Assembly (NCBI GenBank): GCA_027018975.1
Contig: JALUXN010000281.1
Span: forward strand, 1 to 33,650
Direction: 5' to 3'
DNA length: 33,650 nucleotides
Source of the DNA: Mariprofundaceae bacterium
GTDB taxonomy: Bacteria; Pseudomonadota; Zetaproteobacteria; Mariprofundales; Mariprofundaceae
Shown here in pieces: positions 2 through 8,541 of this stretch (the stretch's first letter is position 1; the number at the start of each line of letters is the position of its first letter). Under the pieces are notes generated by a model. That model searched no databases. It was not told the DNA's origin and worked only from the letters and a program-made list of their open reading frames with translations. The position numbers and the translations under genes were made by a program.

Positions 2-727
2 TACGATTGGAGCGAGAACGAGGCGTTCAATACCAAGGGCAACAAGAAGGGCGAGTGCGCCGGTGCGGTATTGTCGATGTCCGATGCGCTGATCTCCGAG
101 GCGGAGTATGAGATGCTGCTGGCGCGCGCCCATATCGATGCGATGTTCTGGGCGGAGGCGCAGAGTGCGCTGCGCCGCTCGGTGATCTCCACCGCGCGCG
201 CCTTTCTGGTGCCGTTCGGTGAAGCACCGGAGGAGGATAGCGAGGTGTTCGGCCTGCTGCTCACCCATGCTGCTGCCGATCAGGACGTGATGGGCGGTTT
301 CCATCAGGTGCAGGCGGCGATGATGGGCATCGATCTGGCTGATCCGGGGGCGGGCGTGACCCGCCTGCGTGATGCGCAGGCCGCATGGTTGGCGTTGGCA
401 GAAAAACGCTTTGCCGCCGTGCCGGAGGAAGTGAGTGAGAGTGAGACGGAAGCGGCTGTGGCAGGCGATGAAGCGGCAGCCGATGCGACGGATAATGTCA
501 CGCTGCTCGATCTCTCCGGTGTCGCCTGCCCGATGAACTTTGTGAAGACGAAGATCAAGCTCTCCACACTGCCGATTGGTGCGCAGCTGGAGGTGATTCT
601 CGATGATGGCGCGCCGATTGAGAATGTGCCGCTCTCCTTGGAAGAGCAGGGGCAGAAGGTGCTGGTCAAAGAGCAGATCTCGGAGCGCCAGTGGAAGATT
701 CGCGTCGAGAAGATTTCCGCAATCTGA
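2..727 (+). CDS. C-terminal part of a protein ending in a TusA/SirA-like sulfurtransferase domain (5' truncated by the window; possibly a sulfite/nitrite reductase fusion)
   Basis: Frame is open from base 2 (YDWSENEAFNTKGNKKGECAGA...) into the 71..727 ORF. The C-terminus LDLSGVACPMNFVKTKIKLSTLPIGAQLEVILDDGAPIENVP fits the TusA pattern (CPxxxxK). The reductase identity is inferred from the adjacent cys genes and the NTKGNKKGECAGA tail. Confidence 0.7.
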   Translation, partial: YDWSENEAFNTKGNKKGECAGAVLSMSDALISEAEYEMLLARAHIDAMFWAEAQSALRRSVISTARAFLVPFGEAPEEDSEVFGLLLTHAAADQDVMGGFHQVQAAMMGIDLADPGAGVTRLRDAQAAWLALAEKRFAAVPEEVSESETEAAVAGDEAAADATDNVTLLDLSGVACPMNFVKTKIKLSTLPIGAQLEVILDDGAPIENVPLSLEEQGQKVLVKEQISERQWKIRVEKISAI

Positions 728-750: not shown

Positions 751-3393
751 GTGACATCCAGCACCGATCTACACCCCTTTGCCAATCCGGGACGGACGAA
801 GCTGTCGCTGGTCAGCCGCGGTGTGGCGTTGCCGGAGGGGTTGCAGCAGGCCTCGCAATGGATTTCGCAGGCCAATGCGATTGAGACGGTGGTCGATATT
901 CGTCTGCCGACCGGTCAGCTCTGTACGGTGCCGGTCGGTCAGCCCTATACGCAGAAGAGCACCTATGAGCTGCGGGAAAAGGATGGCAAGGCGGAGCTGT
1001 ACTGCGCCGGCGAAGTTTCGCCCGTCACCCTGCTGCCAGCGCCGGCGTTCTATCAGCAGAGCACCCGCAGCGGGTCGCGTATGGGCAGTTTCAGCGCCCT
1101 GCATGATCGGCTGCTGATCCTGCATCCGTTCCTCGGTTGCGGCTTCTTTAATCAGGCGGGGCAGGCCTGCCAATACTGCCAGTATGATTCGATGCTCAAT
1201 CAGGCTGAACCGCCGCTACGCGATCCGCTCGAACTGGTGGAGACGGTGCGCGCGGCACTGGCGGAGCGCGATGTCGATACGGTCTATCTCTACAACGGCT
1301 TTTCGCCCTCCAATGATGTCGGCCTGCGCAAGCTGGTGGCGGTGGTGGCGCTGCTGCGCAAACACCTCGGTCATCGCCAGATTGCGCTGGAGACGGTGGC
1401 GCCATCCGACCTGCAGGTGATCGATGAACTCTACGAGGCGGGGCTGGATCTCTTTATCTGCAATGTCGAAGTGCACGATGCGGCGCGCTTTGCCGAGATC
1501 TGCCCGGGTAAGGCGCGGCTGGGCGGACAGGCGGCGATCTATCGTGCGCTGCAACATGCCCGCTCGATCTTCCGCACCGGTGCGGTGGTCAGCCACCTGA
1601 TTGTCGGGCTGGAACCGCTGGCATCGACGATTGCCGGCATGAAAGCGCTGATCGGGCAGGGGATTGTGCCGATGCTGCTCCCCTTCCGGCCACTGCCCGG
1701 CACGCCGCTCAGTGATTGGCCGCTGGCCAGCCTCGATGATGTGGAGCAGGCGCTGCTGGTGCAGTATGAACTGCTCGAATCATCCGGCATCCCGATGCAC
1801 CGGCTGCGCGATATGGGGCGGGTATTGACCCCGATGGAGAGCGGTCTGCTGGTTGGCCGCACGCCTTACCTCGCGCAGCAGGTCGCCAGCTCGACACTGG
1901 GGCGGCGCATGATCGGCTGGATGAACGGGCTGCGCCGTTATCTGCGCTCCAATGGTAAGATCGACGCCAACTACGCAAGCGCTCGCTACCACTCCCTACA
2001 CTGGCTATTGGCCAGAGAGGGGGTGCCGTTTGTGGCGCTGGCGCTGCTGTCGCTCTGCGCGCTCTGGGTGGGGCATCAAGCGCCGCCCGATGGGTTGACG
2101 GCGCAAGGGTGGCATGCGCTGCTGATCTTTCTCTTCTGTCTGGCGCTCTGGGTGAGCGGCCTGATTCCGCTGGCGGCGACCTCGCTGTTGGGTTTGGCGC
2201 TGCTGCCGCTCTCCGGCGTGCTGCCGGCGATGGATGCTTACGCCATGTTCGGGTCGCCGGCGGTATTCTTCATTCTCGGCGCATTCATGCTGGCCGCTGG
2301 CGCGCGTGCCACGGGGCTCTCCGAGCATCTGGCGCTGGCGCTGATCGAGCGGGTCGGCACGGGTGCGCGGCAACTGCTGTTGGCGATGCTGCTGCTGCCA
2401 GCAGTGATGGCGTTTGTCATGCCGGAGCATGCGGTGGCGGCGATTTTCCTGCCAATCGTGCTCGATATGGTGCGCAATCTCGATCTGAAAATCGGTGACC
2501 GTTATGCGCAATCCCTCTTTTTTGCGGTGGCGTGGGGGGCGATTATCGGCGGTGTGATGACGCTGTTGGGCGGGGCGCGCGGGCCGTTGGCGCTCGGTAT
2601 GGTGCAGCAGATCAGCGGCCATGGGTTCAGTTTTCTCGACTGGACGTTGGCGGCAGCACCTCTGGTGTTGCTGATGTTGACGGCTGCTGCAATGCTGCTG
2701 CTATTGACCACACCGTGTGGCGAGCTGGATGTGGCGCAGGCGCGTGCTGCTATCCAGAAACGGCAGTTGGAGCTGGGTAATCTGGAGCTGCGCGGCTGGC
2801 TGATGGGGCTGTTGCTGGCTGGCACAGTGGCCGGCTGGATGCTCGGCGGGCATGGCGCATCGTTGGCGGCGATTGCGCTGCTGGCTGTGGCGGTGATGTT
2901 CGGTCTACATCTGGTGCGCTGGGATGAGATTGAGCGGCAGGTGAACTGGAGCGTGGTGCTGATGTATGGTGGCGCGATTGCGGTCGGCTCGGCACTGACA
3001 GCCAGTGGCGCAGGAGCGTGGATCGCCGCCAATCTGTTGCCCGATGGTGTGGCCGGCCTGTCACTGCTGATGCTGGTGGTGGCGGCGACGCTGCTGTTGA
3101 CCGAAGGGGTGAGCAATGCGGCGGCGGTGGCGGTGCTGTTGCCGGTGGCGGTGCCGGTCGGACTGGGGGCGGGGATTGATCCGCTGACGGTGGCGCTGGC
3201 GGTCGGTATCATTGCCGGCTTCGCCTTCATGTTGCCGATGGGTACGCCGCCCAACGCGATGATCTACGGTACCGGCTTTGTGCAGCGGTTGGCGATGTTG
3301 CGCTTTGGTGGTGTGCTGTCGTTGAGCGCGCTGCTATTGTTCGCTGCGTTGGTGCAGCTCTGGTGGCCGATGATCGGTTTCGGTCTAGAATGA
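751..3393 (+). CDS. Fusion protein: N-terminal radical SAM domain + C-terminal SLC13/DASS anion permease domain
   Basis: Single 880-aa ORF with GTG start. N-half has a cysteine cluster (LGCGFFNQAGQACQYCQYD) and a radical SAM-like TIM-barrel pattern (YLYNGFSPSND, ALETVAPSDLQVIDELYEAGLDLFICNVEV). From about aa 425 it is polytopic with DASS-like features (LIPLAATSLLGLALLPLSGVL, EGVSNAAAVAVLLPVAVPVG, LPMGTPPNAMIYGTG). Confidence 0.85.
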   Translation: MTSSTDLHPFANPGRTKLSLVSRGVALPEGLQQASQWISQANAIETVVDIRLPTGQLCTVPVGQPYTQKSTYELREKDGKAELYCAGEVSPVTLLPAPAFYQQSTRSGSRMGSFSALHDRLLILHPFLGCGFFNQAGQACQYCQYDSMLNQAEPPLRDPLELVETVRAALAERDVDTVYLYNGFSPSNDVGLRKLVAVVALLRKHLGHRQIALETVAPSDLQVIDELYEAGLDLFICNVEVHDAARFAEICPGKARLGGQAAIYRALQHARSIFRTGAVVSHLIVGLEPLASTIAGMKALIGQGIVPMLLPFRPLPGTPLSDWPLASLDDVEQALLVQYELLESSGIPMHRLRDMGRVLTPMESGLLVGRTPYLAQQVASSTLGRRMIGWMNGLRRYLRSNGKIDANYASARYHSLHWLLAREGVPFVALALLSLCALWVGHQAPPDGLTAQGWHALLIFLFCLALWVSGLIPLAATSLLGLALLPLSGVLPAMDAYAMFGSPAVFFILGAFMLAAGARATGLSEHLALALIERVGTGARQLLLAMLLLPAVMAFVMPEHAVAAIFLPIVLDMVRNLDLKIGDRYAQSLFFAVAWGAIIGGVMTLLGGARGPLALGMVQQISGHGFSFLDWTLAAAPLVLLMLTAAAMLLLLTTPCGELDVAQARAAIQKRQLELGNLELRGWLMGLLLAGTVAGWMLGGHGASLAAIALLAVAVMFGLHLVRWDEIERQVNWSVVLMYGGAIAVGSALTASGAGAWIAANLLPDGVAGLSLLMLVVAATLLLTEGVSNAAAVAVLLPVAVPVGLGAGIDPLTVALAVGIIAGFAFMLPMGTPPNAMIYGTGFVQRLAMLRFGGVLSLSALLLFAALVQLWWPMIGFGLE

Positions 3394-3471: not shown

Positions 3472-4404
3472 ATGTCCAATCAACAATCTAAACAGGTATC
3501 TCAGCATAAGCTGACGCAGTTGAAGGCGCTGGAGGCGGAGTCGATCCATATCATCCGCGAGGTGGTGGCGGAGTTCCGCAATCCGGTGATGCTCTACTCG
3601 GTCGGCAAGGACTCCAGCGTGCTGCTGCATCTGGCGCGCAAGGCGTTCTATCCGGCGCCGCTGCCGTTTCCGTTGCTGCATGTCGATACCGGCTTCAAGT
3701 TCAAGGAGATGTACGAGTTCCGCGACAGCTTCTGCAAGGAGATCGGCGCCGATCTGATTGTCCGCCGCAACGAGGCGGCCATCGCCAAGGGGATGAATCC
3801 GAAGGATCACGGCGTGGCGCGCTGCTGCGGTGCGTTGAAGACCCAAGGACTGCTCGATGCACTGGAGGAGGGCGAATATGATGCCGCCTTCGGTGGTGCG
3901 CGCCGCGATGAGGAGCGCAGCCGCGCCAAGGAGCGGGTTTTCTCCATGCGCGACGAGTTTGGTCAGTGGGACCCGAAGAATCAGCGGCCGGAGCTATGGA
4001 ATATCTATAATGGCCGCATCCACGAGGGGGAGAGCGTGCGCGTCTTCCCGATCTCCAACTGGACGGAGATGGATATCTGGCTCTACATCCGCGAAGAGAA
4101 TATTCCCATCGTGCCGCTCTACTTTGCCAAGGAGCGGCTGATGGTGGAGCGCAAACATCTGCTTATCCCCTACTACGAAGAGATGAAGGATCAGCTGCTC
4201 GAGGGTGAGGAGCCGAAGATGGTGATGAGCCGCTTCCGCACGCTCGGCTGCAGCCCGTGTACGGGTGCAGTGCGCTCTGATGCCACCAATATGGATGAGA
4301 TTGTGATCGAGGCGGCTGCAGCGCGCCGCTCGGAGCGCGAGACACGCATCATCGATCACGGCTCGAACAGCATGGAAGATAAGAAGAAAGAAGGGTATTT
4401 TTAG
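3472..4404 (+). CDS. cysD: Sulfate adenylyltransferase subunit 2
   Basis: 310 aa; [23 protein letters not shown]-loop, [27 protein letters not shown]; next to cysN. Confidence 0.97.
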
Positions 4405-4494
4405 GGTGAGGGGTTAGGTGAGAGGCGTTAGGGGGCGTTTTGCTCCTGATGCCTGACGCCGAACCTCCAACGCTTCACAAACAGGGTGAAAACA

Positions 4495-5781
4495 ATGACA
4501 ACACTGAACACAGATATTACTAAAGAGATCGAACTGCTGCGACTGGTGACGGTGGGCAGTGTCGATGATGGCAAATCGACGTTGATTGGGCGTCTGTTGG
4601 TCGATACCAAGGGTGCCTTTGAGGATCAGCTCTTGGCGGTGCGCAAAAAACGCGGCGCCGAGCATGTCGCGTCGGCGGCGGAGATCGATCTGGCGATGTT
4701 GACCGACGGCTTGGCGGCCGAGCGCGAACAGGGCATCACCATCGATGTTGCCTACCGCTATTTCGCCACGCCGAAGCGCAAATTCATCATGGCCGACTGC
4801 CCCGGCCATGAGCAGTACACGCGCAACATGGTGACCGGTGCCTCTACCGCCAATGCGGCGATTATCCTTATCGATGCACGCAATGGTGTCATGCCGCAGA
4901 CCAAGCGTCACACCCATATTCTGGCGCTGCTCGGCATTCCGCACCTGATTGTGGCGGTCAACAAGATGGATCTGGTCGATCACGATCAGGCCACCTTCGA
5001 GGCGATTCGCGACGAGATGAACGACTACTGCGCCAAGCAGGGAGTGCGCGATCTGATCTGTATTCCGATGTCGGCACTGGCCGGCGATATGGTGGCGGTG
5101 CGCGGCGATCATATGGACTGGTATGAGGGGGACACTTTGCTGGAGACGCTGGAGAACTTGTCGGTACTCGATGATGTCGACAATCAGCCGTTCCGTCTGC
5201 CGGTGCAGCTGGTCAATCGTCCGCAGACCGCCGAGTTGCCCGACTATCGCGGCTTCATGGGCACGATTGCCTCCGGCACGGTGAAGGTGGGCGATAAGGT
5301 CAAGGCGATTCCGAGCGGTAATGAGACGACGGTGAAGGAGATCGTTACTTTCGACGGTAACCTGCAGGAGGCGTTCGCGCCGCAGAGTGTGACGTTGACG
5401 CTCAATGATGAGATCGATCTGTCGCGCGGTGATATGCTGGTGCATCCCGGTGCCGAGCCGGCCAGCGCCAAGATTGTGAAGGCCAATGTCTGCTGGATCG
5501 GTGATGAGCCGTTGGCGGCGCGCAATAAATATCTGCTCAAACACACCACCAACACGGTTAAGGCGATGGTCGATAGTATCGATTTCCGCCGCGATATTCA
5601 CACCTTGAGCAAGGATGAGGCGGACGAGCTGGCGATGAACGAGATTGGCCAGATCACCTTCAAACTGATGAAGCCGCTCTACTGCGACCCTTACGCACAG
5701 AACCGCATCACCGGTAGTTTTATCGTCATCGACACCTTCACCAACAACACTGTCGGTGCCGGCATGGTGGTCGAGGCGTAG
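4495..5781 (+). CDS. cysN: Sulfate adenylyltransferase subunit 1 (GTPase)
   Basis: GTPase motifs VTVGSVDDGKSTLIGRLL, DCPGHEQYTRNM, NKMDLV. The ORF track opens at a GTG at 4486; the ATG at 4495 (MTTLNTDITKEIELLR) seems the likelier start. Confidence 0.95.
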   Translation: MTTLNTDITKEIELLRLVTVGSVDDGKSTLIGRLLVDTKGAFEDQLLAVRKKRGAEHVASAAEIDLAMLTDGLAAEREQGITIDVAYRYFATPKRKFIMADCPGHEQYTRNMVTGASTANAAIILIDARNGVMPQTKRHTHILALLGIPHLIVAVNKMDLVDHDQATFEAIRDEMNDYCAKQGVRDLICIPMSALAGDMVAVRGDHMDWYEGDTLLETLENLSVLDDVDNQPFRLPVQLVNRPQTAELPDYRGFMGTIASGTVKVGDKVKAIPSGNETTVKEIVTFDGNLQEAFAPQSVTLTLNDEIDLSRGDMLVHPGAEPASAKIVKANVCWIGDEPLAARNKYLLKHTTNTVKAMVDSIDFRRDIHTLSKDEADELAMNEIGQITFKLMKPLYCDPYAQNRITGSFIVIDTFTNNTVGAGMVVEA

Positions 5782-6114: not shown

Positions 6115-6609
6115 TTAGCTGCGCACACAGCGTGGCAACAGCCAGCGCCCGATGGCGTAATCGAGTGAGAGCTTACCGGGGCCTGCGAGCACAATCGCCA
6201 GCAGCATCAATCCCCACACCTTGTGATCGATAAATTCGTGGCCGATGAAGCCTGCCCAGAGACCGTGTGGCCAGAGGCCGGGGTAGGAGATGACGGCTGT
6301 AATGTTATAGACAAACAGAAACAGGGCGGCGAGACGACCGAAGAGGCCGAGCGCCAGAAACCACGGCACAATCAGCTCGACATAGGTGCCGATGGTGGCC
6401 GCGAGGTCGGGTGAGAGCAGCGGCACATGATATTCGTAGTTGAAGAGGTAGGCGGTGCCCATCGGGTCGTCGAGTTTGACCACGCCGGCGCGCCAGAAGG
6501 CGAGCGCCACCCAGAGGCGGAAGAGTAGCGGACTCAACGGTTGCAGCGGTTCCAGCAGCGCTACGGCGCGGTTGTAGAGGGTGGTGATGGTGTGCAATAG
6601 TTGTTTCAT
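6115..6609 (-). CDS. DoxX family membrane protein (fourth gene of the bufferin operon)
   Basis: MKQLLHTITTLYNRAVALLEPLQPLSPLLFRLWVALAFWRAGVVKL...; four predicted TM segments; start chosen at the internal ATG with complement at 6607-6609. Confidence 0.85.
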   Translation of the reverse strand: MKQLLHTITTLYNRAVALLEPLQPLSPLLFRLWVALAFWRAGVVKLDDPMGTAYLFNYEYHVPLLSPDLAATIGTYVELIVPWFLALGLFGRLAALFLFVYNITAVISYPGLWPHGLWAGFIGHEFIDHKVWGLMLLAIVLAGPGKLSLDYAIGRWLLPRCVRS

Positions 6610-6628
6610 GGATGCTCCTGTGGGGTAG

Positions 6629-7420
6629 TTACTGCGCGGTTTTATGCGCTGTGATGTCGATGACCAGTCGGTTGGCGACCAGCCATGGCAGCAGTTCGGT
6701 GAGGTCGAAATCGGCATCTGCCGCTGTGGTGAGGGCGGTTTGTATCGATTGACCATCGAGCAGTGCGCGCAGCAATAGCGTGGTGGCTGCGGAAACCGGT
6801 TGCATGGCGATCTGTGCGGCATCGCGCCAGATCAGCAGTGGTTGGCCGCCCCGATCAAGCGCTGGCGGCGGTGTCTCGTCCGGCTCCATGCAGTAGCGCC
6901 AGATATCGAACAGCGGATAGTCGGAAGCGATGATCTGCAGCGATGGATGCAGGCGTAGCGCGATCGCGGCCTCGGATTGCTGCAAAGTGTGTAGCCGTTG
7001 TGTCACCGCATCGGCCGATAGCGGCTCGGCATCCGCGGCGAGCAGGCTGCATTGGCGCGCCCACTCCAGCCGAGCAATATCGGGCAGATAAGCGAGGGAG
7101 GATGCCTCTGGCATGGCCGCCAGAAAGGCGGCGAAATGGGCACCGTAATCCTGCAGATTGCCGCTTGTTGCAGGGTAGTCGCGCAGATAACGCAATGCGG
7201 CCAAGTCGAAAAAATCATCGCCCACTAGCAGCCGCACCGCCGGATAGCTGGTCTGCAGCGCCTCGCTAAAGGTATTCTCAATGATGTGGCGATAGATCTG
7301 CATGCGTTGCGCGGCTGCTAAACCATTGCCGGCCACCGCTGCCTCGATGCTCGCATCCCCATGTAGCACGCTGGCGGCGAAATCGCGCTGCAGTTCAGCC
7401 AGCGACGGCGCGTTGCGCAT
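6629..7420 (-). CDS. bufC: DUF2063 protein, BufC/HvfC-like (bufferin maturation partner)
   Basis: MRNAPSLAELQRDFAASVLHGD...AAAQRMQIYRHIIENTFSEALQTSYPAVRLLVGDDFFDLAALRYLRDYPATSGNLQDYGAHFAAFL is the DUF2063 N-terminal signature; overlaps bufB by 26 nt. Confidence 0.88.
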   Translation of the reverse strand: MRNAPSLAELQRDFAASVLHGDASIEAAVAGNGLAAAQRMQIYRHIIENTFSEALQTSYPAVRLLVGDDFFDLAALRYLRDYPATSGNLQDYGAHFAAFLAAMPEASSLAYLPDIARLEWARQCSLLAADAEPLSADAVTQRLHTLQQSEAAIALRLHPSLQIIASDYPLFDIWRYCMEPDETPPPALDRGGQPLLIWRDAAQIAMQPVSAATTLLLRALLDGQSIQTALTTAADADFDLTELLPWLVANRLVIDITAHKTAQ

Positions 7421-8255
7421 CGAGCACCTCCTCAGCGGTTGCCGCCTCACCTTGCAGTACGGCAAAGGGTGGAATGCGGGCATCCCACTCAATCAGTGTC
7501 GGTTTCACACCGATATGCGCCACGGTCTGGCGGTAGAGAGCCCAGACTTCGGGATAGACCGGATGGTCGTGCGAATCGATCAACAGCGGCGCAGCCAAAC
7601 CCGTCTTGCGGGTGAAGCCGGCCAGATGCATCTCGCCGACAGTGGCCGGGTCGATCGCGGTGATAAACTGCATGGGGTCGAATTGGTGGTTGACGCTGTT
7701 GACGTAGATATTGTTGACATCGAGCAGCACGCCGCAGCCGGTGCGCTGCGCCAGTTCGCGGATAAACTCCCACTCCGGCATGGTGGAGTGGCGGTACTCC
7801 AGATAGGTGGAGGCGTTTTCGATCAGAATCTGCCGCTGAAGCAGCGATTGGGTCGCATCAACATGCTCGATCATCACCGCCAGCGCCTCCTCGGTGTAGG
7901 GCAGCGGCAGCAGGCCGTTGAGATGGATCGATCCCGCAGCTCCCCAGCTCAAGTGCTCGGAGACCAGCCCCGGCTGCACGCGATCGACCAGTGTTTTTAG
8001 TTGGGTGAGATGCTTGCGGTAGTCGCTCTCCGCGCTGCCGAGCGACAGGCCGACGCCGTGCAGGCTGATCGGATAGTGCGCGCGCACCGCCTCCAGCTGC
8101 CGCAGGGCATCGCCACCGGCGGCGAAAAAATTCTCGCTATGCAGCTCGAACCATTCGACAGGCGGCAGCTCAGCGATTACCTGCTCGATATGCGGCGCTC
8201 GCAAACCGATCCCGGCATGTGCCGGGATCGTTCGGGTGTCGTTGGCGGTCAACAT
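7395..8255 (-). CDS. bufB: DUF692 multinuclear non-heme iron oxidase (MNIO), BufB-like
   Basis: GIGLRAPHIEQVI...WFELHSENFF...ISLHGVGLSLGSAE...LVSEHLSWG...ILIENASTYLEY...GVLLDVNNIYVNSVNH...GEMHLAGF...DSHDHPVYPEVWALY are DUF692 hallmarks. Confidence 0.93.
   Translation of the reverse strand: MLTANDTRTIPAHAGIGLRAPHIEQVIAELPPVEWFELHSENFFAAGGDALRQLEAVRAHYPISLHGVGLSLGSAESDYRKHLTQLKTLVDRVQPGLVSEHLSWGAAGSIHLNGLLPLPYTEEALAVMIEHVDATQSLLQRQILIENASTYLEYRHSTMPEWEFIRELAQRTGCGVLLDVNNIYVNSVNHQFDPMQFITAIDPATVGEMHLAGFTRKTGLAAPLLIDSHDHPVYPEVWALYRQTVAHIGVKPTLIEWDARIPPFAVLQGEAATAEEVLDAQRAVAG
8207..8230. repeat. 24-nt perfect-arm palindrome at the 5' end of bufB
   Basis: CGATCCCGGCA-TG-TGCCGGGATCG; 11-bp arms. 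Confidence 0.9.
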
Positions 8256-8272
8256 CTGTTGCGCGCACACCT

Positions 8273-8295
8273 GAGGGGTGATCGCATCACCCCTC
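8273..8295. repeat. Perfect 9-bp inverted repeat across the bufA1 stop codon
   Basis: GAGGGGTGA-TCGCA-TCACCCCTC; the bufA1 stop codon is in one arm. Confidence 0.9.
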
Positions 8296-8541
8296 TTTGG
8301 TGCTGCCGCCATCAATTTTCGCGCACAGACCGGCCGGTACAGCGACAAACGCCTTCGGGTCACGTGCTGTGGCATCCTGTCCAGCGCAAGAGTGGCCGGG
8401 GGATTTGCAGTCGTTTTTGTAAGCGGCGTTGACGCCGTAGCACTTCTCCATCGCCGGCGCAGCAGTCGCCTCGGTGATATAAGCCATCGACATAGCGCTG
8501 ATCAGCGCCGTGCCGAGCATCAGTTTTGTTTTGGTTTCCAT
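8287..8541 (-). CDS. bufA1: DUF2282 bufferin precursor (BufA1-like) with signal peptide and four Cys
   Basis: 84 aa; signal peptide ([30 protein letters not shown]), then [46 protein letters not shown]; Cys at 34, 45, 52 and 73. Confidence 0.92.

Follow-up and report, generated by a model that had tools for sequence, protein, structure and literature searches.

A radical SAM enzyme and a DASS/SLC13 permease are joined in one 880-residue polypeptide in a Mariprofundaceae bacterium, a marine iron oxidiser, and this fusion is conserved across the Zetaproteobacteria within an operon for sulfate assimilation. The stretch of DNA analysed here, referred to as the window, is 33,650 nucleotides long and carries the fusion gene near its start (Table 1). 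The reading that we prefer, tentatively and as something approaching an even prospect, is that the protein imports sulfate and that its radical SAM half is a catalytically competent enzyme, lying in the cytosol and serving the same pathway.

Table 1. Features of the fusion gene and its neighbours in the window
Feature	Position	Strand	Basis and remarks
Radical SAM-DASS permease fusion	751-3393	+	880 aa, GTG start; ORF list, profile search, homologues in relatives
Radical SAM half, aa 1-401	751..1953	+	NF045502 variant_rSAM; model pLDDT 83, pTM 0.85; nearest solved folds HydE, LIAS, PylB, HydG, ThiH and BioB
Linker joining the halves	1954..2025	+	pLDDT <50 around aa 402-420
DASS/SLC13 permease half, aa 426-880	2026..3390	+	Profiles, alignment to VcINDY, Foldseek
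Cluster motif C130-X9-C140-X2-C143, presumed [4Fe-4S] ligands	1138..1179	+	Invariant in 35 fused proteins; common to NitD homologues
C237, where barrel strand 4 ends, and C251, in CPGK	1459..1503	+	Invariant in the fusion group; not conserved in aligned NitD proteins
P558-E559-H560, standing where DASS carriers have their first SNT motif	2422..2430	+	VcINDY alignment; invariant in 35 fused proteins; DASS protein of G029 also PEH
R610 in GGARGP	2578..2580	+	Invariant; alignment of 35 fused proteins
S788-N789-A790, replacing the second SNT motif	3112..3120	+	VcINDY alignment and 35 fused proteins
Siroheme sulfite reductase, 3' part, with C-terminal TusA domain	2..727	+	PF01206 7.4e-20; tblastn match to Sir-TusA of L083
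cysD, sulfate adenylyltransferase subunit 2	3472..4404	+	PF01507; relative TIGR02039 449 bits
cysN, sulfate adenylyltransferase subunit 1	4486..5781	+	PF00009 among others; relative TIGR02034 546 bits

The sequence-only reading described a single uninterrupted frame with a radical SAM half and a complete DASS half, and this was borne out both by the open reading frame, whose listing and translation contain no internal stop, and by the profile matches to each half. The junction, at about positions 2000-2030, had been flagged there as a possible frameshift. The join is real: stop-free, full-length fusions at 60-82% identity were found in about 24 of the close relatives that were searched, including isolates, genomes assembled as a single contig (G008 and G012) and M. 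ferrooxydans PV-1 (L054). Across those pairs with estimable dS, dN/dS was 0.05-0.09 for the N-terminal half and 0.08-0.14 for the C-terminal half; purifying selection is strong on each half, and the N-terminal one is the more constrained. An assembly artefact or frameshift is ruled out by the fused relatives, the survey of loci described below and these ratios. The full-length AlphaFold model reached a pLDDT of 82 and a pTM of 0.56, a pTM at which the placement of the halves relative to each other is unreliable.

An alignment of the radical SAM half was scanned against 85,462 species genomes using two strict motifs, which would miss distant relatives, and yielded 66 named loci, all zetaproteobacterial by record or by kinship (two are recorded merely as Proteobacteria, and tree position or identity puts both within the zetaproteobacterial group). 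The gene is fused at 54 of these loci, present as two neighbouring genes at seven and interrupted by contig ends at five. At every one of the seven split loci (L058, L066, L086, L088, L092, L093 and L094) the DASS gene adjoins the radical SAM gene, and in most the two lie end to end or share a few bases; by ORF calls, about 270 bases separate them in L086. Separately, at two loci from metagenome-assembled genomes, L093:3648-5233 and L071:2988-5660, the radical SAM frame itself lies in two ORFs, reflecting either assembly error or decay. Of 78 Zetaproteobacteria genomes, 77 carried the radical SAM half, the lone exception being a genome only 57% complete, and it is single copy in each genome if pieces split between contigs are set aside. 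The spread of the fusion, which the sequence-only reading had left to be established, is thus class-wide. Neither of the objections it foresaw applies, as close relatives are mostly fused rather than all carrying two genes, and our literature search found no paper describing a radical SAM-DASS fusion, let alone a well-described family.

The fusion looks ancestral because the tree has a fused protein (L090) as its basal member and nests the split cases, at two places, within fused groups, although some of the branches that place the split-case groups are weakly supported. This topology suggests that the fused protein is the older state and that two or more later fissions left the genes adjacent. 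No fused NF045502 member was detected outside the Zetaproteobacteria in the scans run, in which coverage of other phyla came from the strict-motif search, and no viral relatives were found with the search patterns used. Searching plasmids with the radical SAM half gave weak matches only, and the named ones listed were mostly of the MSMEG_0568 type; among the weak matches were 372 Klebsiella plasmid records.

The N-terminal half belongs to the radical SAM superfamily by PF04055 (29.8 bits for the whole protein and 31.7 bits for the half alone, cut-off 29.5), and more specifically to NF045502 variant_rSAM, at about 171.9-174.5 bits against a curated cut-off of 125. This NCBIfam entry is a domain model without an assigned reaction. 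The canonical CX3CX2C motif is replaced by CX9CX2C. In the AlphaFold model of this half a radical SAM barrel is preceded by an extra N-terminal, beta-rich part, and the nearest solved structures narrow its predicted fold, not its reaction. The barrel resembles that of the lipoyl synthase, biotin synthase and HydE group, but the cluster motif differs. A lipoyl synthase standing in for a missing LipA was considered and ruled out, since these genomes encode a separate LipA; profile comparison of the radical SAM half with the class's own LipA was weak (7.6% probability), and a profile search with TIGR00510 (LipA) gave no match in the fusion protein.

The nearest kin detected are the NitD/MSMEG_0568 proteins of nitrilase (Nit1C) cyanide-assimilation clusters, at 21-25% identity. 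Among the nit1C cluster proteins, NitD is listed as one with a radical SAM domain (PMC6368324), and our literature search found no reaction for it. The two are homologous over residues 54-352 (hhalign probability 99.5%, 26% identity) and have in common the CX9CX2C cluster motif and a PGK motif. Unlike NitD, the zetaproteobacterial protein lacks a C-terminal CX2CX2C, carries C237 and C251, is fused to a permease and has no adjoining nitrilase genes; its score against TIGR04043 (MSMEG_0568/NitD) is 91.7 bits, far below the cut-off of 303.7. A further NF045502-like protein, at L210:5539-6621 on the minus strand, scores 120.8 bits, below the cut-off for that model, and its neighbours are not those of a Nit1C cluster. 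The kinship with cyanide-cluster proteins, and the fact that the whole class is one lineage, would fit a radical SAM enzyme whose role is unrelated to sulfur, one that entered the operon by accident and has simply been inherited since. Conservation within a single class does limit what can be inferred about function, yet the two genes remain neighbours even where fission has occurred, both fusion and operon order hold across families, and we regard a chance placement as very unlikely.

The C-terminal half is a DASS protein both by profile (TIGR00785 dass, 253.8 bits against a cut-off of 198.6; PF00939, 4.7e-57) and by fold, with Foldseek TM-scores, normalised by target, of 0.85-0.88 for VcINDY chains, up to 0.85 for NaCT and, with a single NaS1 chain, 0.82. 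In DASS carriers the carboxylates are coordinated by the two SNT motifs, which also contribute to the Na1 and Na2 sites (PMC7553777). The second hairpin of the fusion retains S-N and the GTPPNA motif of these carriers, but its second SNT reads SNA and its first is replaced altogether by PEH, so that a dicarboxylate solute, as for the Na+/dicarboxylate cotransporters, cannot be assumed and, with the first SNT gone, the solute is not readable from DASS precedents. The closest DASS protein found outside the Zetaproteobacteria, in genome G029 (38% identity), also has PEH. Its gene lies beside those for Sir-TusA, CysH, MoeB and ATP sulfurylase, and the radical SAM half has no match in that genome; the search of the class to which G029 belongs covered one genome. 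A permease of this type beside sulfate genes but without the radical SAM enzyme leads us to consider that sulfate probably enters through the permease of the operon and that the radical SAM half is probably a zetaproteobacterial addition. Sulfate import by the C-terminal half, as proposed in the sequence-only reading, is supported as far as genome context goes, by the operon and the G029 neighbourhood. The further suggestion made there, of a radical SAM step on a sulfur compound or on the solute carried, found no support in this analysis.

The altered motif could also be taken to mean that the permease imports an organosulfur anion, such as a sulfonate, from which the radical SAM half would cleave the C-S bond to release sulfite for the Sir-TusA protein encoded directly upstream. 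Against this, the genomes encode the full sulfate route (CysDN and CysH), and in G029 the related PEH protein is encoded among sulfate genes but has no radical SAM partner. We know of no C-S lyase in the NF045502 group, and consider that there is only a slim chance of such a reaction here. The 11 genomes searched had no sulfate ABC permease over the cut-off. SulP-family genes are present as well, and the fusion is therefore not the only possible sulfate importer; the idea that it is the sole one was not sustained.

The genomic setting seen in the window, with the fusion lying between a gene with a TusA tail and cysDN, had been read as supporting a sulfur role, and the wider survey strengthens this: a complete sulfate-to-cysteine operon is conserved across the class. 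Its order is thrC, a gene for a MoaD-like carrier, a gene for a NIL protein, a cysK-type synthase gene, moeB/thiF, Sir-TusA, the fusion, cysH, in some cases a TusA-like stretch, cysD and cysN. The upstream Sir-TusA gene of the window is cut by the contig start, the listed ORF at 71-727 beginning at an internal start; a full-length relative (L083) has 789 residues with two NIR_SIR domains and TusA. The TusA-like stretch between cysH and cysD, seen in L045, L046, L050 and other loci, resembles the TusA end of Sir-TusA. The interval between the fusion and cysD no longer holds cysH in the window's clade. This is not a loss of APS reductase, as the same genome carries the gene on a different contig (G000:C31:1672-2256, L192). 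Elsewhere in the window, on the minus strand at 6115-8541, genes for a DUF2282 small protein, an MbnB/TglH/ChrH-family enzyme (PF05114), a DUF2063 protein and DoxX follow one another, an arrangement resembling a bufferin-type RiPP cluster.

Strict co-location with the same set of proteins raises the question of whether the radical SAM half modifies one of them, be it Sir-TusA, the MoaD-like carrier or the permease itself. Profile searches detected no SPASM or other peptide-maturase domain in this half, and no precursor-like small gene was seen adjoining it, making such a modification improbable in our view. Siroheme synthesis was also considered, with the radical SAM half supplying the missing precorrin-2 dehydrogenase step for Sir-TusA. 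Ten genomes (G003, G008, G012, G001, G011, G013, G024, G026, G041 and G029) contain SUMT but have no match to the CysG N-terminal domain, and a CbiX-like chelatase was found in most; despite the absent match, the group has a conserved siroheme-type sulfite reductase. G029 has the same gap and no radical SAM match, and the control genomes of Synechococcus and Corynebacterium likewise match SUMT and CbiX but not TIGR01470. The gap therefore occurs without this fusion, and we hold it highly improbable that the radical SAM half fills it.

A regulatory role for the radical SAM half deserves more weight, although we still think it unlikely. By binding SAM through its Fe-S cluster, the domain could act as a sensor through which ample SAM or Fe-S clusters gate the import of sulfate. 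This would be logical for a domain linked covalently to the importer of a pathway that ends in exactly these products, and the same operon carries a separate gene with a NIL domain, known for sensing methionine in MetN. However, the halves are separate proteins at seven of the 66 loci, and the homologous NitD proteins have no transporter fusion. In addition, the invariant C237 and C251, at or just after strand 4, are expected on the active-site face and would be superfluous for binding SAM alone. A catalytic role is favoured because the cluster motif and these two cysteines are invariant, the N-terminal half is the more constrained, and the halves persist apart after fission.

In the sulfate importer that we propose, the C-terminal half would be an elevator-type DASS permease bringing in sulfate for the CysDN, CysH and Sir-TusA of the operon. 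The N-terminal half would be a cytosolic enzyme of the NF045502 group, kept at the membrane by the short flexible linker, and would catalyse a single radical step in the service of sulfur assimilation, its substrate being a small molecule or a partner protein. Fusion would set a 1:1 ratio of radical SAM enzyme to importer and may hold the enzyme at the point of entry. We infer sulfate as the solute, activity of the radical SAM half and a substrate for it in this pathway. As G029 has a similar cluster without a radical SAM match, the enzyme would not be needed for sulfate assimilation as such.

These findings link a radical SAM group that is still uncharacterised with a transporter and a defined pathway, through a single polypeptide that is conserved across the Zetaproteobacteria, a main group of marine iron oxidisers. 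With some hesitation we would go further and suggest as a possibility that throughout a whole class the sulfate importer has been fused with a radical SAM enzyme, and that this enzyme catalyses a step in assimilatory sulfur metabolism unknown in other organisms. The fusion offers a testable handle both on the chemistry of the NF045502/NitD group and on the route of sulfate uptake in the Zetaproteobacteria.
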